In this document: piece after piece, positions 39,623 to 64,000 of the stretch
Layout of the letters: each line of letters opens with the position of its first letter
How positions within the stretch are numbered: position 1 is the stretch's first letter
DNA from: Fomes fomentarius
Taxonomy: Eukaryota > Basidiomycota > Agaricomycetes > Polyporales > Polyporaceae
DNA length: 64,000 nt
Assembly: GCA_022606135.1 (NCBI GenBank)
Contig: JABYQN010000014.1
Location: 372,001-436,000 of the forward strand
Reading direction: 5' to 3'
Program-made: the position numbers and the translations under genes
The notes under the pieces: model-generated
What the model was told of the DNA's origin: nothing
Databases searched by the model: none
The model's input: the letters and a program-made list of their open reading frames with translations, nothing else

Positions 39623-40319
39623 CTAAGAATGCTCGACTTGCTGGTACGAACGCCAGCTCCTCCAATTCTCTTCCATCGTGTCGTACAGTAGTGGCCAATT
39701 TCTACATTGGCGCTGGCCACTGGCGCGCACAGCGGTGAAATTCCTCGCCATGGCGTTTGCCGGCTCAAGCGTGCTGTCCGCCGAGCAGAGTACGAATTGC
39801 CGGATGACGTTCAGACATCGAGATACGTGCGCGCGGAGGGCTGGACTCGCCGGTGGCTCTTGCTGGAAGGTGGAGACAAGAAAGCGGGAGCAGTGTAGCT
39901 GGTAGGAGAAGCCGGTGTTGAAGAAGCGGTGGTTGGGACCTAGGCGTATGTTGCTATCACCTGCCGCGCCGGTGTAGGCCCATTCGAGTGTGGATTCGGG
40001 GCTGGTGAGGCCATAGTGCACGCTTTCTTCGAAAGCTAGCGTCACCGGTCTCCTCACAGAGGTAGATTCTGACGGAAATGGGAGGTATGGGGGATAGTCG
40101 TCTTCAACGAACGCTGTCACAAAACACGTCAGGACGCAGTGCAAAAGGAAGAGACATCTAGAAGGCGGACTCACAGTAGCCTGAAATTGGTGGGTCTCGC
40201 AACCCCGCAACACGCTTCGTTTCCTGCACGAAGATGACATCCATGACGATATTTGCACCGCATAGAAAAAGCAAGAGAGTGCTTGTAAGCGAGAGAGGAT
40301 TGGGGGCGGAGAAACGCAT
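39623..40319 (-). CDS. UstYa-like (DUF3328) membrane-anchored protein
   Basis: Join on minus 40319-40175, 40113-39623; 211 residues. A hydrophobic N-terminal helix (LTSTLLLFLCGANIVMDVIF) is followed by the domain FVEDDYPPYLPFP ... VHYGLTSPESTLEWAY ... IRLGPNHRFFNTGFSYQLHC ... HVSRCLNVIRQFVLCSADST. UstYa-family proteins carry two HxxHC motifs and act as copper-dependent oxidases or cyclases on ribosomal peptides (ustiloxin, cyclochlorotine type). Here the motifs are YQLHC and HVSRC, each missing one of its two histidines, so activity is uncertain. The start was chosen as the first Met in the spliced frame; an upstream TAG closes that frame. It is divergent to Argonaute, with a shared promoter region of about 770 bp. 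Confidence 0.75.
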
Positions 40320-41088
40320 GAGGAGCTCGTCGTCGTCGAGGTGATACTTGCATCCTCGGAGAGCCTATTGACGTTATTTGGCAGTGTGTTGGAGGAGGCG
40401 GTGCGATTCCTGTACAAACTTTATGGGTACCCTCCAGATCGTTCAGCTTGATGAAGTGTGAGGAGGAGGTCCACTGAATTGTTATTCACGTTGTCATCAG
40501 AGTGTCCTCCAGCCAGCCACTACAGTCCCAGCGGGAGATATCCGCTTAGATCTGTCGCTTCATGGATCGATCAACCCTTTTGTTACTGGGAGTATTCTTA
40601 CTCAGTAACAATGGCCTCATAAGGTTTATTCTCACGGTAAGAATGATCTAACCGAAATGCCTCTGACGCTAGCGCTCGTCACTACCGCAGCTACCACTCC
40701 GTTCCGTGGATCATAGCGACAATCAGGGTGGTTCAGGAAGCTAGCGAAGGAGGTCCTCGCTCTTCTATTCTTCTTATTCCACGCGGACAACACGCAGCAG
40801 TCGCGATCTTCTTTCTACGTATTATCTCGCCGACACGGAGTATCACCGCTGACTCGGAATGAAAAGTAAGTGCCTCAGATACATAATTCGTCGCTTGGCC
40901 CGGTTTTACGGTGGTGCTGCAGCGTACATGTCACTATCGGCTGTACGACCCTGTGCACGAGCCAGCGCCTCGTCAATCTATTTAACTCCGAGTCAACGCA
41001 TTACGCTGCTTTCCCCACTCGTCTTTCATTCCTCTCTTGACAACTCAATCGCTCACAACCTTGCTTTAGCTCCTAACATCATCCATCT
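40320..41088. promoter_or_regulatory. Divergent promoter region between UstYa-like gene and Argonaute
   Basis: No ORF of note. A TATA-like CTATTTAACTC lies at about 40978, some 110 nt before the Argonaute ATG, and the immediate leader is pyrimidine-rich. This block next to the ATG recurs in degenerate form at 56206. Confidence 0.4.
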
Positions 41089-44000
41089 ATGAGTCAACAA
41101 CAGCAATCACGCGCCGGCCGCGGTAGAGGCCGTGGCGGACGTGGGTCAGCACCCTCGACCCGGGGAAGAGGTAGTTCCGCGCCCTCTGCTGCAAGTGGTA
41201 CCACTGCCGGCGCCGGCTTCCAACGCGGCGCCGGTCCAAGAGGCGGTCCCCCTGTCTCTAGCGGAGGACGGGGCGGAGGGCCATCTGCCCCACCCACTCG
41301 TGGCACTCGTGGTGGGGGAGGCTTTCGTGGTGGAGCTCCAGGCCCTGCCCAAGTCTTCGCTGCCGACCAACCTTTGGTCCAGCATCCCCGCCTCGCTGAG
41401 CTCGACCAGCTCGTCCAGTCCTTCAAGCGTCTCCAAGCGAACGCTTCGCCGGAGATGCCCCTCCGCCCTGGATGGGGTCAGCTAGGAAGAGCTGGCCTTG
41501 TCCGGACCAACTTCTTCGCAGTCACCATACCCCCGAATAAGGTATACTATGAATATGAGATCGCCATATCGCCGAAGGAGCAAGCGGCGAGAATCGATCG
41601 CAGGTCTCGTATCATGGAACTCGTTGAGCGTAGCCCCCAGTTTGCGCCCTTCGTTCAGCACGTTGCACACGATCGGAGCCAACGGATGGTCTCGGCTCAG
41701 AAGCTGCCGCAACCGCTAGAGATCCCCATCCGCTATCTTGAGGAGGACCAAGCAGACGACCCGAATGCAATGACCTTCACTGTGGAAATTAAACTCCTTG
41801 GCGAGTTAAACACGTCCACCCTCGTCAAGTGAGTCTCTTGTTTTATAGAAAAGATGCCGCTCTTCCTGACAATCGCACCACAAGATATATGAGCGGCAAT
41901 CCACAGCACCGCGATATCGATACGCAGCCTCTCGTCTCTGCTCTCAATCTCATCCTCCAGCAGTACGCGTCCAAACGTGGCGTGCGCGTTGGCAAGAACA
42001 AGTATTTCTTCCCGTCCTCGTCCGACCATTACCCGCTGTCTCTCGGCGTGGAGGCGTACCGCGGCTTCTTCATGTCCATACGGCCGATGTACAAACAGTT
42101 GATGGTGAACATCAACGTGTGTATGACGGCTTTCTATCTCCCAGGCAACCTTGGGGAGGCCATGCTCGCCTTCCTTCAGCGGTCGAAGGGTGGTATGCCG
42201 CACGCCTTTGCCTACAAGCTCAAGGTTTCCACAAAGCACCTCGGGTTCACGCGGAAATACACTATACATAGCATCATGAGGAATACGACAGCTCGGAAAG
42301 AGAAGTTCAACTGCGCCGAGCTCGGAGGCATGGTCACCGTTGAAGACTTTTTCAAACGCAGTACGTCCACTCACTTCGTATCACGGAGATGTGGCTGATT
42401 GTCCGATACAGAGTACCGCATCACACTCCGTCACGCACAGGACCTCCCACTGATCAACGTAAGCGGCAACAAGGCCAAGCCTGTCTATCTGCCTGTCGAG
42501 ATCTGCGAGATCATGCCCGGCCAGGCGTATCGACCCAAACTCGACGCAGAACAGACGGCAGCAATGATCAAGGTGGCCTGCAACCCGCCTGCGTTCAACG
42601 CGGACGCGATCGTCAACCAAGGCTTCGACGACCTCGGACTCCGGCCAGACGCAGCCGGTGCCTCTCTGGGGGCGTTCGGGCTGAGTGTCAGCTCCGAGAT
42701 GTCCGGGATCCCTAACCGTCTTCTCCCCGCGCCCAACATCTCATATCGCTCCGGTCGCCCGCCACAAGTCCGTGACGCGGGCTGGAACATCCTTGAGGTG
42801 AAGATGCAGGAGGGCGGGAACATGTCGAGCTGGGCTGTCCTCCTTGTCCAGGAGGGTCGTCGCGACGAGTTCAGAGGCACTGGCGACCCCCAGCTCGAGA
42901 CGTTCTTGAAGGCCTTCCTCGCAAAGTGCAATGCGGCTGGTGTCGTTGGGGCCAACACCCCTCCGAAGGTCATGTCCGTCGACCTCCCGAGGCCAGGCGG
43001 AGACACGCAGAGCAGGGACGGCGCGATAGAGGCGATCCGGCAGACGCTCCGACAGAACCTGGACCGGAACAGGAAGCCGAGCTTCATCCTCGTCCTCCTC
43101 TCCGGCATCGACAAGTACATCTACCCTGGTATCAAGAAGCTTGCGGACGTCGACATGGGCATACACACCGTGCACATGCTCCTCAACAAGGCGCGCGACG
43201 GCCGGCCGAACAAGCAGGACCAGTACTTCTCGAACGTGGTGCTGAAGGTGAACACGAAGCTGGGTGGGCGGAACCACACGCTGGACGACAATTCGATGCG
43301 CTGGCTGAAGGAGAAGAAGACGATGATCATGGGCATCGACGTGACGCACCCGTCGCCGAACAGCATCCCGGGCACGCCGAGTATCGCGGCGGTCGTGGCG
43401 AGCACGGACGATCGCTTCACGCAGTTCCCGGCGAGCTTGATGTTGCAGAAGCCGGACTGGAACAGGGAGAGCAAAGAGGTGCGGCTTGCATTGCTTTGCT
43501 ACATTGTCCGTGCAAGACTAATGGTGGTGGTTTAGATGGTGGAGTCGTTGAGCCAGATGACGATTGAGCGCCTTCAGCTCTACAGGAAGAAGAACAGGTC
43601 CCTCCCCGATCGCATCATTGTGTATCGTGATGGGGTCTCGGAGGTAAGTGCATCAGCTCGTTCGTTCGGCGGGTCTCTGATGCATATCGGTGTATAGGGA
43701 CAGTACGATCATGTCATCGTCGAAGAGCTACCGAAGCTACAGGCGGCATTCAAGCAAATCTCGCCCTCGGCACCTTACAAGCCTGCGCTGACGATCATCG
43801 TCTGCGGCAAACGCCACCACGCACGGTTCTTCCCGCAGAACTCGGCCAATGCGTCGCGCAACGGCAACACGCTCCCGGGCACGGTCGTGGACAAGGGTAT
43901 CACAGACATCTACAACTTTGACTTCTATCTCCAGGTCCGTAGCACACACGTCGTCCTCGTATCCTTGCGTCATTGCTGACGAAACTTGCTGCTGCTCTGC

Positions 44001-49392: not shown

Positions 49393-50638
49393 ATGAGGCC
49401 GCTTCCCGCAGAGATCCTCTGGCTCATAATCGACGCAGCGTTCGACGGCCTCGATTTTGTCGTGCTTCACTGGCGCGCCCAAATCGCATGCGCATGCGCC
49501 CTCACATCCAAGGCCATCCTTCCACGCGCCCGCTTCCACTTGTATCGCATCATCAACCTCTACGACCGCTCCCGACTCCCATCCTTTGCACGTACCATGG
49601 CCGAGTGTGACGATCTCCCTCTCATGGTGAAGCGCCTCAGACTTGACTTCGCCCAGTTTGTTTCTCAAGATGACGGCCACTTCGATGTGCCCTTCCCCCC
49701 ACACGTCGTCGCCCGCCTCTCCAACCTCCAGTCCCTTGAGATTGGTCGTCATTTTAAGTACACCCCGCCACATATGCCACCGGCCGCGCTTGGCTTCGCA
49801 AAACTGTTCGCCGCCGCCTGCCCCTCACTTCAGGAGCTGTCCCTCATCCAGATCAATTTCAATTCCTTTGCGGACTTTGTTGATGTCCTATGGTCCTTTC
49901 CTCACATCCGCAAAGTGACCATATCTAACCTGTATTGGCCCCTTTCGACGCCCCTTTTGGCAACCGATCTCACAAGACTACCCACGACACGGAGCAACAA
50001 CCTGACCACCGTCGAAGTATGAGATCGTCCTTGTGTCGATTGCCCGTGATCTCATGTTGGTACACAGCTTGAGCTTCGTGTATCCGATATGAATATGTTC
50101 GCGCATGTATGGGGAGCGAACGTGGAGACCCTCATCCTCAATCCTGGTCCCTTCATCGACGATAGAGGTAGAGTCATTTCAGCATCCATCGTAGTGGCTT
50201 GATGACCTACAGTTTTCCCCCAGAATTATCGTCCTTCTTGCGTCTTGAGCAGCTCCAAGTGGTTGGCTTCGCCAATGCGATGCGCAAGCTCGGGAAAATA
50301 CGCTCAGAGCACTTGCACATCATCAAGGTCGAAGAAATTGTCAAAGACGAACAGTATGAGAGCTTGCTGGCCCATTTAACAGAGATCGACGGCATTCTCT
50401 CGCAACCGATGTTCCGCAGCTTGCACCGCATCGTGCTGACGATCATCTATTGGGGAAAATACTACAAGCGGCAGGAAGAGGCGCAGTGGGTCGAGGACGT
50501 CACCGCATGCCTTCCAGGGCTGCAAGATCGTGGGATTCTGCACGTTAGTGCCCATTGTAGTGGGTGCAGCCCTGTGTTGTGTGGTCGTGTTCTCCTGCTG
50601 ACGTTTGGGGAAGTTTGATCCCGTTGACAGGTTATTGA
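49393..50638 (+). CDS. F-box-like protein, cluster copy 2 (intact)
   Basis: Join 49393-50016, 50068-50167, 50224-50559, 50631-50638; 355 residues. Starts MRPLPAEILWLIIDAAFDGL. The middle carries ARFHLYRIINLYDRS, VVARLSNLQSLEIGR, CPSLQELSLIQINFNSF. Exon 2 gives LELRVSDMNMFAHVWGANV and exon 3 FLRLEQLQVVGFANAM. Exon lengths 100 and 336 equal those of copy 1. The upstream leader (ACACCTCCTGCAGCTGCACA...ACGGACGAATCATGAGG) resembles that of copy 1. Without the last mini-exon the frame would run 29 codons longer into the intron. Confidence 0.8.
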
Positions 50639-50684
50639 ATGCCTTTGCGCTTCAAGTTGATCGTGATGGCATTTTGGACTTTGT

Positions 50685-50830
50685 GCGTGTGAGTGTATAA
50701 TATAGCATGTATCGAGAGGAAGAAGACGGAGATGTCTGTCGCCCCTCACGAGCGTGAAGGTGAGGAGCTTGTAAGTCAACCTGAACAGCCTCCAATGAGC
50801 TGGAAGAGTCCCGTCGCTGAGATAGCAAGG
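50685..50830 (-). pseudogene. Eroded scrap of the 7-TM gene (copy 5)
   Basis: On minus it reads AGCGACGGGACTCTTCCAGC, then TACAAGCTCCTCACCTTC, then GACATCTCCGTCTTCTTCCT. These match three separate parts of exon 4 of the 34717 gene (ATGLLQLVE, YLITFAL, NLSVFFLSVY). It sits upstream and antisense to F-box copy 3, as the other truncated copies do to their F-box neighbours. Confidence 0.7.
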
Positions 50831-51485
50831 GTACAGCAGTATGAAGGCAGCGCGCGTTCAGAAGTGTCATCGCCCGGGAATAATGACCGGGAATAGGTCG
50901 AAAGTATAGGTGGTCCATTCTCTTATTCTCTTCGTAGTTCGTTCTCTTACTCCAAATTCTCTTCTTCTCTCCGTCGAGCATCATCTATTCTGAGCATTCC
51001 GAAGTTGTTCAACAACCTCTCGAGTCGCAACTCGTTCCCTCTAGATTTGCTCAACCCAGGCATTCTGAACTGCTAGTCCAGGTAGCATATCAAAACACAA
51101 TTTTGATACACGTTAAAGACCGTAGAATGCAACGAGTAGAGACGCAAGGAATAGATTTGCGACAAGGAGACTTGCAACTTGTGGAATGGGCGCCTATTCT
51201 CGCCTACTTGCGTCCTGCCCACCATCTCCATCCTCCTCTCCTCTCCTCTCCTCTCCGATTCTGGGCTGGCTGCAACGCACCAAAAATTGAAGACGCGTAT
51301 GGACTTTGGCACACGTCTCCAGGCTTCTCGCTGGTACCGCACGTCTCCAGGCTCTTCGCAGGGAATGCGCTGTAGTTCAAGTGTGAGTCCAGATCTCACG
51401 CAGACTCGTCGCGCTGTGCTGGTGAGGTCGCCATCAGGGGCTCAAGCGCTCATCCTCACTCCACATCCTCCAGGTGTAAAGAATC
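50831..51485. other. Spacer before F-box copy 3
   Basis: Contains a CTCCTCTCCTCTCCTCTCC tract near 51233. No gene seen. Confidence 0.45.
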
Positions 51486-52795
51486 ATGAAATCGATCCCA
51501 GCAGACATACTCTGGCTCGTACTTGACGCGGCGGTCGAGCACCTGGATGCGCAGATCTTCGAGGACGCGTATAGATTCACCATTTTTCACGCCCGCCTTC
51601 GCGGAGAACGACTGCGGGTGCCATGCGCATGCGCCCTCACATGCAAGGCCATGCTTCCACGCGCCCGCTTCCACTTATATCGCAGCATCGCTCTCTACGA
51701 CCGCTCCCGACTCCCATCCTTTGCACGTACCATGGCCGAGTGCGACGATCTGGCGTTCATGGTGAAGCACCTCACATTTGGCCTCGCCCAGTTCAATGTT
51801 TCCGCCAAAGACAACGACCACTTCGGTGTGCCCTTCCCCCCACACGTCGTCGCCCGCCTGTCAAACCTCCAGTCCCTCGAGATTGGTGGTGCGCGGAACC
51901 CGTCGCCGATGCCACCGGCCGCACTCGACTTCGCAAAAATGTTCGCCGCGGCCTGCCCCTTACTTCTGGAGCTGTCCCTCACCAGGCTCGATTTCGACTC
52001 CTTTGCGGACTTAGTCGGTGTTATCTGGTCGTTCCCTCACATCCAGAAAGTGACCATATCTTACTTGTATTGGCGCCGCCCGACAACCGGTGTCACAAGA
52101 CTCCCCACGACACCCAGATGCTGCAACAATCTGACCACCGTTGTAGTACGAGACCGTTCATCTGTCGATTGGCCGCCATTTGATGTTGGCATCCACAGGC
52201 TGGGGTATGTATATCATCGGCTGCACACATGTTCGCCGGCGCATGGGGAGCGAACGTGAAGACCCTGCTCCTCCAGCCTGGTTCCTGCATGCACGAAGGA
52301 GGTAAAGCCATTCTAGCGTCCATCGTCGCTCAACGTTAACCTACCATCTCTCCCAGAATTCTCGTCTTTCTTGCGTCTTGAAGAGCTCGAACTGCAACGT
52401 AGCATTTCCAGCGGTGCTGCCGTGCGCGTGCTCGGGAAGATACGCTCGGAGCACTTGCGCATCCTCCAGCAACATGTCAAAGATAAACCGTATGCGTGGA
52501 TCCTGGAGGACTTGACAGAGGAAGGCGGTGAGATGGACGCCATCCTCTCGCAGCCGATGTTCCGCAGCTTGCGCCGCGTCTCGCTGACGATCATCTATCG
52601 GAACTACTCCACACAGCGCAATGAGGCACGGTGGGTGGAGGACGTCACGGCGTGCTTTCCTGGGTTGCAAGGTCGCGGGATTCTGCACGTCAGTGCGCGT
52701 TGCAGTGAGTGCAGCCCTGTGTTGTGTCGTTGTGTTCTCCTGCTGACATTTGATGGACTTTGATCCCGTTAACAGAGCGTTACCGTCTGATATGA
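51486..52795 (+). CDS. F-box-like protein, cluster copy 3 (intact, most divergent)
   Basis: Join 51486-52145, 52199-52301, 52357-52704, 52776-52795; 376 residues. Starts MKSIPADILWLVLDAAVEHL; continues CACALTCKAMLPRARFHLY, VVARLSNLQSLEIGG, FLRLEELELQRSI and WVEDVTACFPGLQGRGILHV. Exons 2 and 3 are 3 and 12 nt longer than in copies 1 and 2. Exon 4 differs, encoding KRYRLI before TGA because the acceptor context changed from GACAGGTTATT to AACAGAGCGTT. Same inferred role as the others. Confidence 0.78.
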
Positions 52796-53967
52796 CCGGT
52801 CGAACCAGGTCGAGCCGCTTCTGGCATGCCCTCCATACCGGCGTCAAACTGAACATGTCGAGTAACGAGTATCATTCGTGCATGGAGGTGAGGATCGATA
52901 TGCGGAAATAATTAGCTGGGACGTGGGAGCGGACTGTGCACATATGCCTGTGACATACGAGTGCATCTAATAGTCCAGGATGGTTAATGGCGCCGTGAGT
53001 TTATGACCCTGCCAGTGTATGAGAACCAGCTCTCTCGTCTGTTACGCAAGATGATATCCAGGATGGGCCTCCTTGCAAGACTGAAACACCGAGCAGCCTG
53101 TGTCCTTGTGATTGTACCTATGTCACATCGCCCGAATGACGGTGTGAGGAACATCATAATCCACGACCTGGAGCATCGAATGTGTCGGAATCTGGCAAGA
53201 GAAGCAAGGGTGGAAGATTGCTAGCGAACCTTCTGCTACGGTAGGGGTACGGGCCAACGTGTTTGCCACGATGTCCCAATGATAATTGGGCGCTGCCATC
53301 CGGGTTCTCTCGTTCGAGAAATCCCCTCAGGGCGGAGGTTATACAAGAAGCCGGATGGTTCTGTGTTTTGCCGCCGGTAGAACATTCGGCGGATAAAGAC
53401 TCCTATACAGCGCCGTCTCGTAACTTACGCCCACAACGCTGAAACACCGACATTCTCGCGGCCTCTGGATACGCCCAGCGTTCCAGCGGCAGCGCTGACT
53501 GGCGTGATCATCACGGGGGTGAGATCGGAAGGACACACTCCGGTGCAAAACAATTCATTAAAGGCGGCGAGGATGCAAGAGTTGGCTCCGGAGGGTACCT
53601 CGCCGCGTGCTTGCGGCGACGTCAACTGCCTGAAAGGCGGTACAATTACGGCGTGTCGTAAACAGTATGCACCGCTGCAGACTTGTTCGGTGCTGCTAGG
53701 GATGAATGGACGCTCTAGAGGCTATGAAAAGCGGTTCCAAGGCCGTCGAAACCAAGGCGAATCGCAAGGAGACCTCATCAACCCCCTCGGCGACGATAGA
53801 TCGTCGGAAACGTCAGAGAAGCTCGTGCATCCCATGCTCTTCCCATCTTCTGATCTAAATAAACCCACCGATGACCAAGGCCTCGAGGGTCTATAAAAAG
53901 GGTGACATGAACGAGAGGTCCCCTCACTCGACCTACCAGCCTCCGAGGACGCACCCGAGGACCCGTC
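52796..53967. other. Spacer and promoter of the repeat-peptide gene
   Basis: An ORF at 53504-53896 has no recognisable features. The TATA box of the next gene is at 53892. Confidence 0.45.
53892..53900 (+). promoter_or_regulatory. TATA box of the repeat-peptide precursor gene
   Basis: TATAAAAAG, 76 nt before the ATG at 53968. Confidence 0.6.
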
Positions 53968-54312
53968 ATGCAGATTACTACCGCCCCTCGTTTCTTCTCT
54001 GCTCTGCTTGTAATGCTGTTCGCTCTCCAAACGGCGCAAGGGCTCCCACTGGCAGCGACAGGGACTACTCCAAGTCCTGATGACAGTATGTCAGCTGCCG
54101 CGTTAACCACACAACGTATGACTGACCTCGACCGAATCCTCCATGAACAGTTGGGCCTACGCACGGACATGGTCTCCGCGACGAAGCTAGCCTTGCCCCA
54201 GTTCAGGACGACAGTACGTCATAAAATTCAAGACACAGATATCTCACCTGCTGATTCGTGCGAAGTTGGCCCGACTCACGGACATGGTCTGCGCAATGAA
54301 GCACGACTCTGA
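53968..54312 (+). CDS. Small secreted precursor with two IGPTHGHGLR repeats (intact member)
   Basis: Join 53968-54085, 54151-54213, 54266-54312; 75 residues. Signal peptide residues 1-25 (MQITTAPRFFSALLVMLFAL...), then a spacer LPLAATGTTPSPDD. Exon 2 encodes IGPTHGHGLRDEASL plus APVQDD; exon 3 encodes IGPTHGHGLRNEARL and stop. Each repeat occupies its own exon, and both introns are phase 1. The frame is supported by comparison with the second member at 62521: the four repeats differ almost only at third codon positions. No dibasic site flanks the repeats; each is followed by (D/N/E)EA after LR. I know no named family with this motif. Candidate roles are a ribosomal peptide natural-product precursor or a secreted signalling or metal-binding peptide. 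Confidence 0.75.
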   Translation: MQITTAPRFFSALLVMLFALQTAQGLPLAATGTTPSPDDSMSAAALTTQRMTDLDRILHEQLGLRTDMVSATKLALPQFRTTVRHKIQDTDISPADSCEVGPTHGHGLRNEARL

Positions 54313-54639
54313 GAAAAGGTGTCCTAGACCCTGTGTGTGGTCGTCATGGCATTAGTCCTCAACGTCGTCTGGTCACCATATGTCACATGAGGAAGACCCA
54401 CCTCCCATGTCTTCATAGATACAATGACAGTTGCTTGAATGTGAGATAGTGCTAGAAGTTTTGCTGCATTCCCTGAAGGCAGATTGCAGCCATCCACGAT
54501 GTGAATCCAACGCTGAGGATGAACAATACGACATGAGTGCGCTATGGACGTAGGTCACGTATCATAGTGCGGAACGATGAATGACACACATATCTGTGGG
54601 TATTCACGCGAGACACGGCAGCTGTGAAGGAGGCAAAAT
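54313..54639. other. 3' region of the repeat-peptide gene
   Basis: Nothing recognisable beyond the probable 3' UTR. Confidence 0.4.
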
Positions 54640-55160
54640 CAACGCGCAATCAGTAATCCACCGCGGAACGTACCACAAGCGTCGACGCTGAAATCTTGAG
54701 ATCCGGTTAAAGGAGCAAATTGACCAAGTGTCCATTTGCTACTCACCAAGATACGACTCTCGCAATTTTCAGGGCCGCAAGTCTCAGATCGATGCCAAAC
54801 GAAGCCATGACCCATGTAGTCCGTAGCCACTGCGACTGCCAGTCTCTGCATAGACCCTGAACAAGGGTTCAATACATGTTTTGACGGAGATCGTAAACGT
54901 AGGAACACAACTTGTCTCGTCCGCGTCACCAGTAATCAACCTTGTACCGGTCATGTTGAAGGTTGAGTAGAACACATCCGCCTCAAGAATCGGGCTGAGG
55001 AGCATCATCCGTATTCCAGTCCCACAAGGTCAGTGTGCCATTGTCACCGCCCGAGAAAAGTACGCCCTCCGAGTTGGCAGAGAGCGTGTTGATAATCGCG
55101 TTCTGCCCGCTGAGGTTGAAGACGAACATGCCTTCCGGGCATTGAAGTTTCCACTATTTG
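54640..55160 (-). pseudogene. PRP46/PLRG1 WD40 gene fragment (3' half)
   Basis: On minus it reads [20 protein letters not shown], then [12 protein letters not shown], then [20 protein letters not shown], then the last-exon equivalent GTCTATGCAGAG. The same order occurs in the better copy at the right edge, but frames are broken and exons are missing. The homology stops near 55160 at the PEGMF codons. Confidence 0.75.
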
Positions 55161-55767
55161 GTGTAACGTCTGGCTCATGCACATCGACTCTATCAATGCT
55201 GCACTGGCACCACTGTCTGTACAACCGGACCAAGCGACGAGTTTTAGAATGAACCTGAGGCACTCACTTTTAACTCAACAGTGATACTCCGAGTTGTAGG
55301 CAGCTTGTGAGTTGGAAGGAAGATCGCGACTACTACGGCACAGACTCAGAGTGGACGATGCAGCTGCGTCGATAGTCGCGAGCGCTGGCCTCAGACGCCT
55401 CCACTGGTCGTCACGTGTATTGGGTGCTCGTCTGCTCTCTGAGTCTCTCCTCGACTTGAACTTCCTCTTGCATGTCCTTGCTCTCGCTATCACAGCTCTC
55501 TACTATCTTCTCGTCCGCTCCCTTGCACTTTCTTTCACTCACTCTCACTGCGCTCTGACCACGCCTCGAAGAGCCTTCTCAACGTGTAAATTTGAACCTT
55601 GCGTCGGGCTAGCTCACGCTGTCATTAACCGGTCACATCTAGACTGTGCGGGGTCTCAGGGGTCTCGAAATCCGTGCCTGTTCTCGTGCGGATAGAACAA
55701 GGTGTGTATCTGATTACTCTGGTTGCTACATCGCTCGTTTGTGCTGACTCTACTGAGCAACGCTTAG
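55161..55767. other. Spacer between inverted PRP46 fragments
   Basis: Holds an ORF (55312-55695) with no recognisable domain. No other gene seen. Confidence 0.4.
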
Positions 55768-56205
55768 ATGGTCAACCTTGAAGCAAACAAGGTCATTCGG
55801 CACTATCATGGTCACTTGTCGGGGGTATATGCGCTCAGTCTACACCCAACACTCGATGTCCTCGTTACTTCTGGTCGTGACGCGTCTGCACGAGTATGGG
55901 ATATGCGTACAAAAGCGCAGATTCACGTCCTCTCGGGCCACACAGCCACCGTCGCAGATGTGAAGTGTCGGAGTCCGTCCGACCCGCAAGTGATCACGGG
56001 TAGTATGGACTCGACTGTACAGTGCGTCCTTTCATTTCAACTTACCTCACAGGGACGCGTGTTCACAATGAAACGCATTCGGCAGACTATGGGGCCTCGC
56101 GGCCGGCAAGACGATGGTCACGCTCACTCACTCACCCTGTCCGAGCGCTTGCAATCCATCCGCAAGAATATACCTTCGCCTCCGATTTAGCAGGCGGTAA
56201 CAACT
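55768..56205 (+). pseudogene. PRP46/PLRG1 WD40 gene fragment (middle), frameshifted
   Basis: [54 protein letters not shown] and [12 protein letters not shown] are two or three clean WD40 blades of the spliceosomal NTC component. After the intron ending CGGCAG the frame gives [15 protein letters not shown] (Asp of WDLAAGK lost) and then shifts where the right-edge copy has [13 protein letters not shown]. Homology ends at GCAGGCGGTAACAAC near 56200, where Argonaute-like sequence starts directly. Confidence 0.8.
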
Positions 56206-56510
56206 TTCTCCACTCATCTTGCAGCTCTTATTATCATCATCGATCTATGGGTCAACAATAGCAATCACGCGGTCGCCGGGGTAGAGGCCCGTGGCGGACG
56301 CAGATCAACACCCTCGAGTCTGGCACGCAGGTAAGAGGTACTTCCGCGCCCTCTGTTGGTGGGACCGAGCTACAAGTCAGCTCCAGATGTGGTACCACTG
56401 CAGGCGGTGGGCCCCAACGTGTCGGGGGCCCAAGACCCCTATCTCTAGCGGAGGACGAGCACGGAGACGCGAGGTCGGACGAGAATGGGCTCAATCTTTG
56501 ATGAGCTGAC
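56206..56510 (+). pseudogene. Argonaute 5'-end fragment, degenerate
   Basis: ATGGGTCAACAATAGCAATC and the following GGTAGAGGCCCGTGGCGGACG track the start of the intact gene at 41089 (ATGAGTCAACAACAGCAATC, then GGTAGAGGCCGTGGCGGACG). The leader sequence just before the ATG also matches (ATCATC...ATCTATG). The fifth codon is TAG and several indels follow. Ends near 56510. Confidence 0.8.
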
Positions 56511-57391
56511 TGTTCCTGAACTTTACAGCTCCTCCGATGTTATGGGTTGGTACGCCAACGTCGCTTAGAAACCATTGTTGTGATGAAAGACAGTGTCGAA
56601 CATGTGCATGGCGTAGGCAAGAGCAACGATGTCAATGAGCGCGACAGTTGCAACTGCGGCAGACAGCCATAAGAATGAGGGTGGAATGCCTATGCCTTCT
56701 TGCGGTGAGGGTTGGACGTCTTATTTGAGTGGGGTACTTCTCTTGAGAGACAATCAGCTCTGGCGTGTGGGTGGCATTCAGTGATACCTGCTGGGAGGGT
56801 GGGGTCTACGAGGCTACGTACCCTCAGAGGAAGTCTCTATACCAATCAGAGTCAAGGCATTCTCGGGGGAGAATTTCTTGGTATCCAGCCTTTTATTCAC
56901 ACATATCATGAGCGTACGAGGATGAGGATAGGTGCGATGATCGCAGGGCCTTCAAGCTGGGGACCTCGAGTTTGAAGGCGGTCTTCAGGCCATGGAAGTT
57001 TTTAATAAATTGAAGATATGCTATTACCTTTACATCCTGGAGGCAAGATTCTAGTAAGAGCTTCTGGTGTGCGCCCGAGTCTGACACGAGGCAACCATAT
57101 GAATATACCGCTCACCGAGGGGCTGTATCATCATCCTTCGCAGTCGGAACATTGGGTTTCAGGCGTGCATGATCAAACCTTTTGTCAGTGTCAATCAACC
57201 TCCGAGTATACACGCGTTTGAGTCTACACAACTTGCCTTTTGCAGCTGCCCCTCGAGGAGATGGTGGAAGTCAAGCATAAACCAACTTCTCACGAGTCCG
57301 ACGAATATAAAAGGAAGGGAACCAGCGGGGGCATAGCACACTACCATCGCTGTGCCCCGCCGACTGCCACTACACATCTGGTGCTACTGTC
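56511..57391. other. Spacer and promoter of the 57392 gene
   Basis: No gene seen. A TATA box (TATAAAAGG) lies at 57306-57314, 78 nt before the ATG. Confidence 0.45.
57306..57314 (+). promoter_or_regulatory. TATA box of the 57392 small secreted protein gene
   Basis: TATAAAAGG, with the same spacing to its ATG (78 nt) as in the 53968 gene (76 nt). Confidence 0.55.
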
Positions 57392-57712
57392 ATGAACTTC
57401 AAGTTCTACTCGACCACCGAGCTCCTCAGCATATGCTTTGCTGTCCTTATAGCCATACTTGCGGTTCATGCGCTTCCACAGCCGGTCAGCCCAGGTCCTG
57501 ATGACTGCCCCCCTCCAAACCCAGTGAGCCTGAGAGGTAGGTCAACCAAACATCTGACATTCACGCCGGGACAAGGGGTTGTTGATGAGTTCATGCATCT
57601 GCAGACGTTGAAGGACCACCTAAGGAGAACTGTTGGCTGTCGTGATGCGCACGACTTTGGCCGTCACAGCGGAACAGCAGGTGGGTCATGGCCTCACCGT
57701 AGTTTGCGATGA
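57392..57712 (+). CDS. Small secreted protein, possible third relative of the repeat-peptide family
   Basis: Unspliced it gives 106 residues: signal peptide with LLSICFAVLIAILAVHA, then LPQPVSPGPDDCPPPNP. The opening LP...SPGPDD resembles LPLAA...SPDD of the 53968 protein. Alternatively the GTGAGC after PPPNP is a donor and an acceptor at GAACAGCAG joins VGHGLTVVCDENS, ending at about 57869; that would carry one diverged GHGL unit and two cysteines. I cannot decide between the two models. TATA box and leader look like those of a real gene. No known family. Confidence 0.4.
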   Translation: MNFKFYSTTELLSICFAVLIAILAVHALPQPVSPGPDDCPPPNPVSLRGRSTKHLTFTPGQGVVDEFMHLQTLKDHLRRTVGCRDAHDFGRHSGTAGGSWPHRSLR

Positions 57713-57869
57713 AAACTCATTCGACGGAGCAGCTCATACTATCAATTGTGATTCTCACAAGACTCGAAGAAGATATGGTGACTCTGACGGACTTCTAGCG
57801 ATGTACAATGTACAATGGTCGATGTTTCCACCGAGCGAATACACGTCTGCACACCTGCACCTTACTTGA

Positions 57870-59658
57870 CCAATTGAATGACAAATTCGAGTAATTTGGT
57901 TGATGTGTATGGACTCCTAGCGTTGCTCAGCAGTGTGCATAGTGTCTACAAGTTCCGTCTGCTGACAAGTGAAATCTGGGATGTTACTCTATCCCCGCCG
58001 AGTCGAACATCTGCTTCCCCCTTACAAATATGGGTAGGTTACATTGACAGCGCTGGTATCTCAAGTAGCATTGGATTGGCTAGACATCTCCGGTAAGTTG
58101 TCGGATGTAACTCAACCATCTCGCAATCCTAGAGGCTGGCGCTGCTTCAGCTGCATAGGACACCCGAGGCCACCGACTACGAAGCAACAGGTGACTCATG
58201 TAACCGATCTTCTTCTCCGTAGTGAATATTGCTGGCATCTGTCACTTTTGACACTGGCCACGGGCAGTGCATTGAGCTCCGAGCGGAAACTCAAAGTCAG
58301 AATTCTGCTCGGTCGGTGCTGCGGCGAATATCTGGGTTAGTGGTGCATGTGGAGATTTTGCTCCTAAACCCGAGAGGAGGAGGAGGAGAACCAACTTCGG
58401 TCAACCGTGAGACACGCTCTAGCTCGAACCCTATCTGATCGCATTATTCCTGGGCGTAACAAACTCAGATTCTGCGCTTGCAAAAGCGGAAAAAGCATCC
58501 TAATCAAGAAGGAGGAATGACAGCGTTCGCAGTCGTCAACTTTGTCCAGGAACGAACTGTCTACAGACCGCCCACTGGCCATAAACCGGTACTTACAAGA
58601 ACCTGCGCCACTAGCTAGCGGGTGGCTGTGCAGACGCGGCTCACGGAGCGCCCGTCAATCGGTCCGAATCATGTACAATCCGATTAACGCCACGCAGCTT
58701 GATAAGATTACACCGCTTGTGAGATAAGATAGCAAGATACTTGAGAACGCTACTAGTACTCTCTCTTCCACCACCTAAGCCGATGCGCCGCCACTGCATG
58801 CACACCCTATCAATTGACCTCCGCGTTCACGGTTAACACCTCCAGCACGACGCCGGTCCCCCAATGATCACCAAGCTTTCGATACAGTCAATCTCACGCA
58901 GTCAAGTTCTCATTCATGTCTCTCCCGTATCCTTCCCGTTGGCGACGCGATACCCGAACCAACGCGTCCACGCCCCTCGTGCCATTCGTCATGAAGCTCG
59001 ACCCGCGAACGCACCCTCGCCCTTGCGCAAGCTCAGCACTTGCTCAGCGCCACTACCCGGGCAAATGCTGTTCAAACATTCACGTTGTCATCACCGCGCG
59101 CGACTTTCTTCAGTTACAGCACACATGTTCTTTGGGATGTTCTTCATCACGAAATGATGGAACTGAGTATCTCCCAGCACGGAGCACTTCTTGGGATGTA
59201 TCACTGAGAGCTTCTGGGTCTCACGGATACACTGAGACACACTGACTCGAACGTATTACGGAACCCTGTGAACTCTCACAACCCACAAGTGATCAGTACC
59301 CCACAGCGGGTATGCCCCCGTTTGAGGCTCAAGTTAGAGGCTCCGCCCACTATAGTCCTAAACAGCGCCCACCACCCCGCTATAAGTTGGGTTCCTGGAT
59401 ATCACTCGAGCCAGCGCTTATGATACCCGTTCCAGTACGCTTCTACTTGTGTCGCTACTACGTCTGTGTTGCTCACCGCTACAAACAGGTTCAAGAGCAC
59501 TTGTGTCGCCTCAATGCTCATTACCCTCCGCTCCTTACAGTCTGACTTATCTTCGTGTTTTACGTACTGGTACTGGTCTGCTAGTACATTGATCTAATCG
59601 GTTGATGTGTCCCCCTCATCGCACTTAGTGTCTCTCGAAAAGAACCACATCGACCAAT
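57870..59658. other. Region without a supported gene
   Basis: Apart from the UstYa-like scrap at 58526, several plus-strand segments have intron-like borders (for example GGTAAGTTGTCGG near 58091), but I cannot assemble a protein. A GGAGGAGGAGGAG tract lies at 58375. Confidence 0.4.
58526..58610 (+). pseudogene. Scrap of a UstYa-like gene
   Basis: After GAATGACAG it reads FAVVNFVQERTVYRPP, parallel to FAIVNFVWEPSTHRK at 61106. The preceding AAGGAGGAATGA is also shared. The rest of the domain is absent. Confidence 0.5.
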
Positions 59659-60587
59659 CTATCCATGATACTTGAAATCAATCTTCTCGTAAATTGGAAC
59701 CTAGAATTGTACATCATAAGTAAAAGCGGAGCACGATCTATGAATGGCTCACATTACGGATGTTGGTAGTGGTCAAGGCGACTGCCACGCCAACTTTTGC
59801 GGCCTGAATAGAGCCCTGAGACAGGATAGGCAAAGGAGTCTTACAACTGATCCTACCTCTCTGAAAGCTAGCTGGAACATGGCACTCGCAACTCCCTTGC
59901 CTTGATAATCGCGTACCATAGCAAGGTTGCACCAATAGGTATTACACTCTGCTTCTGTTATCCCGATCATCTCGTCATTGACGCGGGGAACTTCTTTACC
60001 CATCTATATGACATCGAGCATGCATGAGTATCCTTGTCCCGTGAAGATGCACATCGACGCTTACAGCTCCGGGATAGTAAGCCTGACCCTCAGGAGAAAG
60101 TGATTGCATGAACTCTTTGACTTTCCCGACCTTCTGCTGTTCCTCACTGACGGCATGTGAATCGTGAGTAGTCAGCGACAGAACGTCGAGATATATCACA
60201 AGACGCACGTGGAGCCCATCAGTTGGCCAGGAAGAGCGAATAGGGTGAAGGCCACGAGACTTCCGAGTTCATCTCTCGCGATGTACAGATGCCCGGCGCC
60301 GGGGACAAGTGCCAGAGAACGGATTATGACACGGCCAAGACTCGGTATAAGTGATAAGTTGCCACCCGTAAGAGCAATCGCGGCGGGATCTACGGTATGA
60401 TGAATCCTCTGATCAGGTGCATTGTCAAACGACGCGCCTGCAGCCATGAGGTTGGAGAACAAGTCAGTCGCTTCCTCTGTGAGGGCCTCTGCAACGCAAT
60501 GTACATCAGGAAATTGCGCGATCACAGTGGCCACTGATTACCTGTCGGATTGGGAACCAGCTGGATGTTGACGTTAGCAGGAGCCAT
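59659..60587 (-). CDS. GNAT-family N-acetyltransferase, C-terminus truncated
   Basis: Join on minus 60587-60542, 60488-60209, 60146-60065, 60003-59857, 59815-59753, 59700-59659; 219 residues. MAPANVNIQLVPNPTE, then GAGHLYIARDELGSLVAFTL, ALPGQLMGSTEEQQK, and the acetyl-CoA loop MVRDYQGKGVASAMFQLAF (R/Q-x-x-G-x-G/A type), then VPIYEKIDFKYHG and TAG. Past the stop, in another frame, lies DWSMWFFSRDTKCDEGD, the expected C-terminal strand. A deletion that removed the loop between HG and DW has therefore truncated the protein by about 20-25 residues. The fold may survive or the gene may be dying. Divergent to the UstYa-like gene at 60973. Confidence 0.75.
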
Positions 60588-60972
60588 TGCAATATGAGCT
60601 GAAATACGGAGGAGGGGACGTCGAGCCTTTTACGGAGCTGGGCCATCACTTAATCCCGGTACAGATCACAGGTGCAGCTTCTGCGACGTGAGCAGTTGTT
60701 TTCCAGAAGGGCGCTCAAGTGGTTCTTGAGCGCTGTGGGAAGTACTGTGGAGGAATGGAAGAGAGCACACATTATCCGATCATCCTCGCAAGACCCATTG
60801 GGCGCTGCGCCGTGCTTGCGGTCTAAAGCGTAATAGGACTGCAGTTCGCAGGACGCATCGCCACTGATGTAGATTTGAGCGCAACTTGAGAGAACGTTCT
60901 ATAGGCGGTGCATCAACCTCAACTAGACTGACGGGGGAGCAACTCACACCTGCACTCGAATTCACTACCCAT
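60588..60972. promoter_or_regulatory. Divergent promoter region, GNAT and UstYa-like genes
   Basis: Short intergenic stretch between two divergent genes, a common cluster layout. I see no clear TATA box on either side. Confidence 0.35.
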
Positions 60973-61586
60973 ATGCATCTCTCACCACGGATCGCCAAAC
61001 ATACGTTCGCAGCTTTCTCCGTTGTTCTCGTCGCGAACGTTCTCTTCAAATTATTCGGCCGCCTGGCGATTGACAGGATAAGGAGGAATGAGAGTGTCGG
61101 TCCAGGTTCGCCATCGTCAACTTTGTCTGGGAACCATCCACTCACCGGAAGCTAGTTCAATGGGATTTAGATGGAAAAGAGGTCGTCCTCCAAGGCGACC
61201 GCTGGACCCGATACCCACTCCACGACTCTGCTCAGCAATGGGCCGCCCTCTTTCCCGAAGGAGGAATAGTACACCTGGGTACAAAACACACCCCACACAC
61301 GGTCTCGATGATGCACCAGCTCCGATGCCTGGATGTCGTCCGCGACCAACTCACTCGTCCTAGGGCAGCCCGCGATATTGAACCAACACGTCACTGCATG
61401 AACTATCTTCGCGAAACCTTGATGTGCCGAGGCGACCTCCAGATCGATCCATACCAGTACGCGCATAAGATTAACGCGGTGCATCCTCATCCAATCCGGC
61501 GATGCAAGGATTGGCGGGTCGTCTACGCGAAAGTCGCGGAGTACCAGCGCGCACACGCAGTCTGGTTGGAGGCAGACCCGGAGTGA
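60973..61586 (+). CDS. UstYa-like (DUF3328) protein, 5' frame uncertain
   Basis: The main part from 61106 reads FAIVNFVWEPSTHRKLVQWD, RWTRYPLHDSAQQWAALFPE, GIVHLGTKHTPHTVSMMHQL, then RCLDVVRDQL, RHCMNYLRETLMCRGD, RRCKDWRVVYAKV and EYQRAHAVW. The pair HQLRC / TRHC...LR..LMC..D is the UstYa signature, each missing one histidine of HxxHC. Upstream, ATG at 60973 opens a frame with a membrane helix (FAAFSVVLVANVLFKLF) and IDRIRRNES, but that frame is +1 to the domain. The only splice pair would be a 12-nt intron, so either a frameshift or an unseen first exon is involved. Family role: copper-dependent modification of ribosomal peptides. The damaged repeat-peptide gene lies 0.9 kb downstream. Confidence 0.65.
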
Positions 61587-62520
61587 CAGAACTTTCGGTA
61601 TAATCCACGGGTCGCATTTGAAGATATTTGGTCAGTGCCTGTCTATCATCAAAGAAACCAGATTAACACGAGGCTGTGATCGTGCATGGCTTGTGTAGGA
61701 AACATACGGAGTGGGTTCAACACCAGCACTTGTGTCTCCCAGACCATTGTTGTACATGTAGTTGTCAAGGCCTCGGTCGAGACACATGAGATTTGGTACC
61801 ATTGCGTATTCACTGAGATGATGTTGTGTTCCTTGAGGACAGAGATTGTTGTGCTAGCTAAATTTTATGTGGAAGATCTGAGAGTTGCTTACCAGGATGA
61901 TATCGCAGTCAAACGCAGATGCTAGAAGATGCATCATGGAAGTGAGCCCGAAACAACGGCCGGTGGAAGGAGGCGAAAAAATGCGCCTTCGACCCGCGCC
62001 GTGACAGTCTGTAAGCGCAAGCCTTGGAAACTGAAAAGTGCCCAGATAACCTCTCTGGAAAGGTCGGTGACATGATACTCTAGAAGGCTGTGTATGTTGT
62101 TGAGTTGCATCAGATGCGTGTCAGCCTTGCACAAGCTGTCGCATGGACTGGTGGTCTAAGACCGAGTCATAGGCGGCTCCCATGCCAGTCAAACTCCGGA
62201 CGCAAAGAGACATGAGGCTCGAACTCGTATGGATTGATGCGGAGCTGCGTAGGAGAGGGTTGCGATGCACAGACGTCTGGATGTGGTGAGGACGCATATC
62301 ACAACTCACCATTCGCCGGCGGGTACCTCTCCGCAGAGTCGCGGCGACTCCAGTATCCGTAGGTTGTTCTCAACTAGTGATATCAACGCCGGCATTGAAG
62401 GCAGGCTGGTTCGTCATCAAGGGTCGCGCGTACGCAAGGACGGCGAAGGGTCATCGGAGTGACCGCGCGCACCTCTCCACAAATTTTCGACTCTGGAAGT
62501 TCCGCCACGATCTACCCACT
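61587..62520. other. Spacer with possible antisense UstYa-like remnant
   Basis: On minus around 62165-62070 the run DHQSMRQ then (one base off) LCKADTHL resembles the second UstYa motif (HC..LRQ..LC.AD). Too short to call as a gene. Confidence 0.35.
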
Positions 62521-62849
62521 ATGCACCTCATTACCGCTGCCCGCCTCATCTTGTCCTCCTTGTGGCTAGGCAGACAACGCAAGAGTTCCCGATAGCGGAT
62601 GAGAGTGCTGCACCGAGTCCTGCGAACAGTACGTTGACTACACCCTTCTGACGGTGATCTTACTGACCTCCCACAGTTGGGCCACCTCACGGCCATGGTC
62701 TTCGCGAGGAAGCTAGCATTTCCCCGGGAGAGTATAACAGTACGTCAACAAAACTGTGAACGGGGGTTTCGTCTACTCACTCAAAAACAGTCGGACCGAC
62801 CCATGGTCATGGGCTGCGTTATAGACCCTGTAAGGAAGTCCATCCATGA
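62521..62849 (+). pseudogene. Repeat-peptide precursor, second member, signal peptide frameshifted
   Basis: Exons 62521-62628, 62677-62739, 62791-62849. Exon 2 is 63 nt, exactly as in the 53968 gene. It encodes IGPPHGHGLREEASISPGEY plus Asn; exon 3 encodes IGPTHGHGLRYRPCKEVHP and stop. Exon 1 aligns with the signal peptide of the other member: MHLITAARLI in the ATG frame, then LVLLVARQTTQEFPIADESA in the next frame, paralleling LLVMLFALQTAQGLPLAATG. A 1-2 nt indel near 62549 therefore breaks the start. The repeats themselves remain perfect, so the damage is recent or a different start is used. Confidence 0.7.
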
Positions 62850-63333: not shown

Positions 63334-64000
63334 CTACTGTGACTGCTCTGCATAGACCTACAGAGACGTTTAGTACACAAGCCGCCAAAGCCTGAAGTGT
63401 CGCGACGCACCTTGATGGTCTTGTCCGCCCCACCAGTTATCAACCTCGTCCCTGTCATGTCGAAGGTTGAGCAGAACACGCCTGCCTCCGCCTCCAAAGA
63501 ACCAGGCTGAGGGACATCGTCCATGTTTTGGAAGGCAGTGCCCGTATTCCAATCCCACAAAGTCAGCGTGCCATTGTCACCGCCCGAGAAGAATACACCC
63601 TCGGAGTTGACAGAGAGCGTGTTGATGATCGCGTTCTGCCCGCTGAAGTTGAAGACGAACATGCCTTCCGGGCATTTCCACTTCTTGATGTTGTTGCCGC
63701 CTGCTGATGCGGACGCGAAGGTATATTCTTGCGGATGGATTGCGAGCGCGCGAACGGACTTCTTATGGTGCGTGAGCGTGACCATCGTCTTGCCGGCCGC
63801 GAGGTCCCATAGTCTGCCGGATGCATTTCAGTGTGAACATGCGTGCTTGTGAGGGAAGTTGACGTGAAGAGACGCACCGCACAGTCGAGTCCATACTACC
63901 CGTGATCACTTGTGGGTCGGACTCTTGACACTTCACGTCTGCGACGGTGGCTGTGTGGCCCGAGAGGACGTGAATCTGCGCTTTTGTACGCATATCCCAT
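63334..64000 (-). CDS. prp46: PRP46/PLRG1-type WD40 splicing factor, 3' part (runs off the window)
   Basis: Join on minus >64000-63878, 63813-63411, 63357-63334; phases agree and no lesion is seen in the part present. WD40 blades: [125 protein letters not shown], then a short last exon VYAEQSQ. PRP46/PLRG1 is a subunit of the NineTeen complex required for spliceosome activation. The C-terminus is shorter than in animals, which continue past KVYREDD. The 5' part is beyond the window, so intactness is unproven. Fragments at 54640 and 55768 are relatives. Confidence 0.8.

Follow-up and report, generated by a model that had tools for sequence, protein, structure and literature searches.

A Small Predicted Secreted Precursor with a Unit Repeated in Two Exons

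What does a gene produce when its successive exons open on the same ten residues? This question is raised by a window of 64,000 nucleotides (the whole stretch of DNA analysed here, C14:372001-436000) from the 40.9 Mb genome, in 24 contigs, of the polypore Fomes fomentarius, the tinder fungus. The window carries two loci, gene 1 (53968-54312) and gene 2 (62521-62849), whose second and third exons each begin with the unit IGPTHGHGLR or a close variant of it. The sequence points to gene 1 being a real gene under selection, an exon-repeated precursor located in a region rich in UstYa-family genes, with its splicing, its product and any modification being predictions. The gene is apparently unannotated.

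Gene 1 is predicted to encode a secreted precursor of 75 residues, which reads MQITTAPRFFSALLVMLFALQTAQGLPLAATGTTPSPDD-IGPTHGHGLRDEASLAPVQDD-IGPTHGHGLRNEARL once its three exons on the forward strand are joined. A TATAAA box (53892-53897, +) stands 76 nt 5' of its ATG. Exon 1 (53968-54085) would provide a signal peptide (best nine-residue mean 3.1, from a hydropathy scan alone) and a spacer rich in Pro and Asp, and it ends in phase 1. Exon 2 (54151-54213), whose first codon is split by the intron, counts 63 nt and reads IGPTHGHGLR followed by DEASLAPVQDD; exon 3 (54266-54312) reads IGPTHGHGLR followed by NEARL and a stop.

The unit occurs at four sites of the window (54153, 54268, 62679 and 62793), where 0.14 would be expected by chance with up to two mismatches, and none of 100 shuffles reached four. 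A looser exact motif pattern gives four matches in the entire genome, all of them at the two genes, and the reversed-pattern control gives none. The unit stands where an earlier note on this DNA had placed it, opening the second and third exons of both genes. Across the four units, variable sites are distributed 1/0/9 over codon positions 1/2/3 (hypergeometric P 6.7e-6; the four units share descent, so that this P value and the one on the linker serve as guides only), and 14 of at least 15 changes are at third positions. When ten changed sites were scattered at random over one unit 20000 times, every placement left more than one amino-acid change. The codon-by-codon description of that note also holds, with a third base that differs in eight of the nine codons from G to R and T to P as the sole amino-acid change. 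When exon 2 is compared copy to copy, the unit differs at 1 of its 10 residues and the linker behind it at 7 of 11 (Fisher P 0.024). Because the changes gather at third positions and the linker drifts while the unit stays stable, selection acting on the unit peptide, which the note had proposed, is well supported.

The repeat exons and their introns are likewise as previously described, exon 2 measuring 63 nt in either copy and every intron being in phase 1. We infer that both genes are spliced, because both introns of gene 2 hold stops in the exon frame and because the unspliced frame of gene 1 ends early in its two database relatives. In these relatives, P0001 and P0002, 39 residues of exon 1 are kept (92% and 90% identical), and both end 9 residues past it, presumably at a stop; the residues SMS that follow exon 1 in both would fit a kept GTATGTC donor. 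In gene 1 itself the unspliced frame is open for 114 codons, from 53968 through to the stop, and one could read the gene as this single frame, the exon model being wrong and the repeat a remnant of duplicated DNA. We hold this to be very improbable: the frame takes in the final unit alone, each of the four copies shows a third-position bias in keeping with the frame of the unit, and the unspliced frame, which seems not to be kept in the relatives, terminates there in intron 1, to which the stops in the gene 2 introns must be added.

The database search with gene 1 returned no annotated relative, since its two matches among 53 scored candidates are short unnamed frames covering exon 1; the ten-residue unit is too short to be scored against 5.8 billion sequences, and distant relatives lie beyond what that search can exclude. 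In the genome search, a weak match to gene 1 was observed on C2 (E 0.37). Within the literature searched, the letters GPTHGHG appear in no paper and none pairs Polyporales with UstYa; from 2018 on, none combines exon, core peptide, precursor, ribosomally synthesized and post-translationally modified peptide (RiPP) and basidiomycete. Within that scope no described family with the motif came to light, in line with the note, which knew of none.

A Probably Decayed Duplicate

Gene 2 repeats this architecture with a damaged beginning. Its second exon (62677-62739, +; 63 nt) reads IGPPHGHGLR followed by EEASISPGEYN, and its third (62791-62849, +) IGPTHGHGLR followed by YRPCKEVHP and a stop. These are preceded by a stretch resembling exon 1 (62521-62628, +), in which the frame from the ATG at 62521 differs from that of the repeat exons and meets a stop after 24 codons. 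In the repeat-exon frame no ATG is present as far back as the upstream stop, no TATA[AT]A is found within the 120 nt upstream of the gene 2 ATG, and no signal peptide is recognised in the gene in its present form. Gene 2, which retains both unit exons behind a first exon in another frame, thus looks like a duplicate decayed at its 5' end. An assembly error in exon 1 might also account for the shifted frame.

When the units of gene 1 are compared with those of gene 2, the third-position differences amount to 4 and 4 for unit 3 and to 9 and 7 for unit 4, while first positions differ at most once and second positions never. This near restriction to third positions suggests that constraint acted on gene 2 during much of its history; an intact exon 1 would have been lost afterwards. 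The description of a two-gene family of secreted precursors is not confirmed, since it holds for gene 1 and only in part for gene 2, where exon 1 is out of frame and an in-frame ATG is missing. Both copies precede sequence of a WD40 gene: pieces of the stretch 3' of gene 1 (54914-56204) recur 3' of gene 2 (63418-64000), one direct and three inverted, and are 79-99% alike depending on the piece. For this reason, the two loci likely arose by segmental duplication and were rearranged later.

The UstYa Neighbourhood

PF11807 (UstYa, DUF3328) has 10 matches in the genome, 7 of them within 131 kb at C14:354-486 kb, around both genes. When ten loci were placed uniformly 20000 times, no placement was as tight; local gene duplication explains part of this clustering. 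The nearest match to gene 2 is 1.0 kb away. Inside the window we observed an A-type gene, C8Q74DRAFT_317592 (60973-61586, +; PF11807 49.8 bits; annotated protein P0031), with motifs HQLRC and PTRHC, and a B-type open frame (39626-40420, -) with the degenerate motifs YQLHC and HVSRC. Another UstYa protein of C14 is identical to the annotated C8Q74DRAFT_1304876. A-type loci are C14:354140, 433257 (window 61257), 468751 and 485268 and C4:781838. The B-type frames C14:358263, C14:478789 and C4:781086 keep all four His, and the first two, which gene 1 has at distances of about 67 and 52 kb, have complete double HxxHC motifs. The two types are located near each other at C14:354/358, 411/433 and 469/479/485 kb and at C4:781-782 kb.

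In a database search seeded with an A-type protein, HxxRC replaces the first HxxHC in 77 of the 79 proteins (P0003-P0081). Of the 77 that could be parsed (2 of 79 unparsed), 76 are also without the leading His of motif 2 and thus have at most two of the four His; the seed favours A-type, so that these counts do not give its share among basidiomycete UstYa proteins. This is a basidiomycete UstYa group with HxxRC and xxxHC which, in this genome, stands close to B-type genes. DUF3328 proteins include copper enzymes oxidising peptides, for instance CctR, whose activity is abolished when alanine takes the place of the conserved His and Cys of the motif (PMC12435403). The neighbouring UstYa proteins are of the same family as this copper-dependent enzyme, and, compared with it, the A-type reads HxxRC and xxxHC and the B-type of the window YxxHC and HxxRC. 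Given the need for conserved His and Cys in CctR, the A-types may work as partners of other proteins and not be enzymes sufficient by themselves. In a PDB sequence search, P0003 had no credible match (best E 1.9).

A Pfam scan of 20 open frames, picked by base composition from the 70 listed (at least 85 residues, 30-64 kb), gave UstYa, WD40 and argonaute above the cut-off and, among these 20, no peptidase, methyltransferase or P450; the UstYa frame at 39626 was covered in part by a separate scan, and tailoring genes may have escaped a search of this scope. The argonaute gene (ArgoN, PAZ and Piwi above the cut-off) lies at 41077-43532 (+), next to the B-type UstYa frame at 39626-40420. The stretch 50002-52775 holds direct repeats that are 79-88% alike and spaced by about 2.1 kb, and the scanned open frames there have no Pfam match. 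For F. fomentarius, ten RiPP core enzymes were counted in a 2025 study, which also gives expression data for 27 conditions, and the UstYa genes described here may already be among its antiSMASH-predicted RiPP clusters (PMC11827164).

Other Candidate Precursors

Three further candidate precursors are located among the UstYa genes, at C14:429392, 475489 and 482587. Each has a predicted signal peptide, a spacer with PDD, SDN or SDD and one phase-1 intron, and its short final exon encodes Cys together with Tyr or Trp. Their distance to the nearest UstYa match is 2.7 to 3.6 kb, less than that of gene 1. The first of them (window 57392-57645, +; exons 57392-57536 and 57605-57645) sits between gene 1 and gene 2, has TATAAA at -86 and reads MNFKFYSTTELLSICFAVLIAILAVHALPQPVSPGPDDCPPPNPVSLR followed by DVEGPPKENCWLS; no further genome match was found for it at E <= 10. 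The candidates at C14:475489 (+) and C14:482587 (-) are related and end in ..SPLIDCGYL and ..SPLVDYCYL. Genome searches (E <= 10) with two of the three gave no relative outside the 475489/482587 pair, and a database search with the three-candidate alignment gave none at E <= 10 (2 candidates scored). A Pfam scan of four precursors found no family above the cut-off, the best being DUF5437 (E 0.049), and no candidate appeared in a precursor scan near the UstYa pair at C14:354-358 kb. Elsewhere on the contig, the open frame C14:459627 (-) has a signal peptide and contains CC near its start, presumably as a hydrophobin-like protein.

The first precursor scans used filters set after gene 1 had been seen. 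Without the Asp filter, the scan of the 164-kb region gave 7 phase-1, 4 phase-0 and 3 phase-2 candidates; ten simulated sequences gave 0 to 3 phase-1 candidates each and 17 in total, a weak control, the simulated DNA being gene-free. The motif [PS]D[DN] is carried by 4 of the 7 real phase-1 candidates and by 0 of the 17 simulated ones. The same scan over 34 kb around the C4 and C11 UstYa loci gave 0 phase-1 candidates, and it missed C4:783219 (-), because the first exon of this gene is below the 75-nt minimum. A looser scan recovered it beside the C4 UstYa pair, as a small secreted two-exon gene made of a signal exon, a phase-1 intron and a short exon.

Which Part Is the Product?

Gene 1 is best read as a secreted multi-copy precursor, and that part of the earlier proposal stands; as to its other part, the short peptide may be the product itself or a recognition sequence. 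Taken as a whole, the reading to which we give about even odds is an exon-duplicated secreted precursor, cleaved to a His-rich product that UstYa enzymes possibly oxidise. Exon 1, with its signal peptide and spacer, would take the precursor into the secretory pathway, and every later exon would contribute one copy of a short peptide starting IGPTHGHGLR. The two copies would have been made by tandem duplication of the symmetric 63-nt exon, a process that adds a copy and keeps the frame because the exon is in phase 1 at both ends. Cleavage would most likely occur past the single Arg of GLR, before [DNEY], a cut that we propose because dibasic sites are missing. The peptide so released would be the product and might be oxidised by the surrounding UstYa-family enzymes.

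In favour of this reading are the third-position bias, the stable unit beside a drifting linker, the stops and early frame ends that speak for splicing, the exon 1 kept in two relatives, the UstYa-rich location and the three other small signal-peptide genes with a phase-1 intron. Several observations weigh against it. Gene 1 is separated by 6.9 kb from the closest UstYa match, and each of the two UstYa proteins of the window has only two of the histidines that make up HxxHC(x)nHxxHC, which has four. By eye, no KR, RR, RK or KK is present in the gene 1 translation past the signal peptide, and Tyr, Trp and Phe are absent from the unit and from the gene 1 tails. For the S41 peptidase (PF03572), no genome match was found at E 0.001, with 2 candidates scored and intron-split genes able to escape. 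Finally, C4:783219 has a paralogue at C12:1177621-1177737 (-), on a contig without a UstYa match, and gene architecture alone is thus no proof of a UstYa link.

Two other readings of the product have to be weighed. Gene 1 might encode an unmodified small secreted peptide, either metal-binding through His-Gly-His or effector-like, with the UstYa genes serving C14:429392, 475489 and 482587. The unit without aromatic residue, the Cys with Tyr or Trp of these three candidates, their shorter distance to UstYa matches and the paralogue of the similar two-exon gene far from UstYa all speak for it; on the other hand, the repeat in separate exons and the UstYa-rich location would then be a coincidence, and we consider this reading rather unlikely. 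Alternatively, the conserved unit would serve for recognition or processing, and the core would be the variable stretch past GLR; RiPP precursors that join a constant leader to a changing core are built in this way. The products would then be DEASLAPVQDD and NEARL from gene 1 and EEASISPGEYN and YRPCKEVHP from the duplicate. The fast variation of the exon 2 stretch beyond LR fits this idea, as does the candidate at 57392, which likewise shows ..SLR followed by DVEGPPKENCWLS. Tyr is moreover present in both gene 2 tails and leads one of them, which recalls the crosslink through an N-terminal Tyr in ustiloxins and phomopsins (PMC9233826). Against it, the gene 1 tails have no aromatic residue and one counts only five residues, gene 2 looks broken, and the unit is missing from the other nearby candidate precursors. 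We regard a core located in the tails as unlikely.

Relation to Known Precursors and Significance

A secreted precursor of this kind resembles those of the dikaritins (ustiloxin, phomopsin and asperipin, from UstYa/UstYb clusters) by its signal peptide for the endoplasmic reticulum, its repeated short unit, with two core-like copies in each of the two genes, and the PF11807 genes nearby. It differs from them by the lack of dibasic Kex2 sites, by a unit without aromatic residue and by repeats that introns would split. The neighbourhood also departs from dikaritin clusters, by two UstYa proteins of the window that are short of two of the four copper histidines and by the lack of an S41 match in the genome. 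A UstP-like S41-type peptidase has a role in dikaritin clusters. Its absence from some of them has been reported (PMC12048977).

Gene 1 is also similar to Kex2-processed repeat proteins (KEPs), being small and secreted with repeated units, but KEPs are defined by Kex2 sites between the repeats (PMC7329392, PMC6339444), of which gene 1 has none. The available main text of these two papers contains neither the word intron nor the word exon. Given these differences, the sequence of gene 1 does not fit a textbook dikaritin or Kex2-repeat precursor, and the gene may be the precursor of an undescribed peptide product.

In basidiomycetes, DUF3328 genes were found near 103 of 1680 KEPs (6.1%), and the author suggested that the motif of the cyclisation factor might differ in these fungi or that cyclisation might be rare there (PMC7329392). 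Intron-split precursors without Kex2 sites, beside UstYa proteins with altered motifs, would be one way in which the basidiomycete cyclisation motif could differ, an idea open to testing in this wood-decay fungus, which can be cultivated. It is doubtful, though conceivable, that polypores hold a whole class of peptide natural products whose precursors grow by duplication of symmetric core exons, are cut at a single Arg and are modified by UstYa pairs with a half-histidine A-type (HxxRC) partner. If this is true, surveys for Kex2-separated repeats in annotated proteins would overlook such precursors. The search rule, if the reading is right, would then be a signal exon, symmetric phase-1 core exons and UstYa neighbours.

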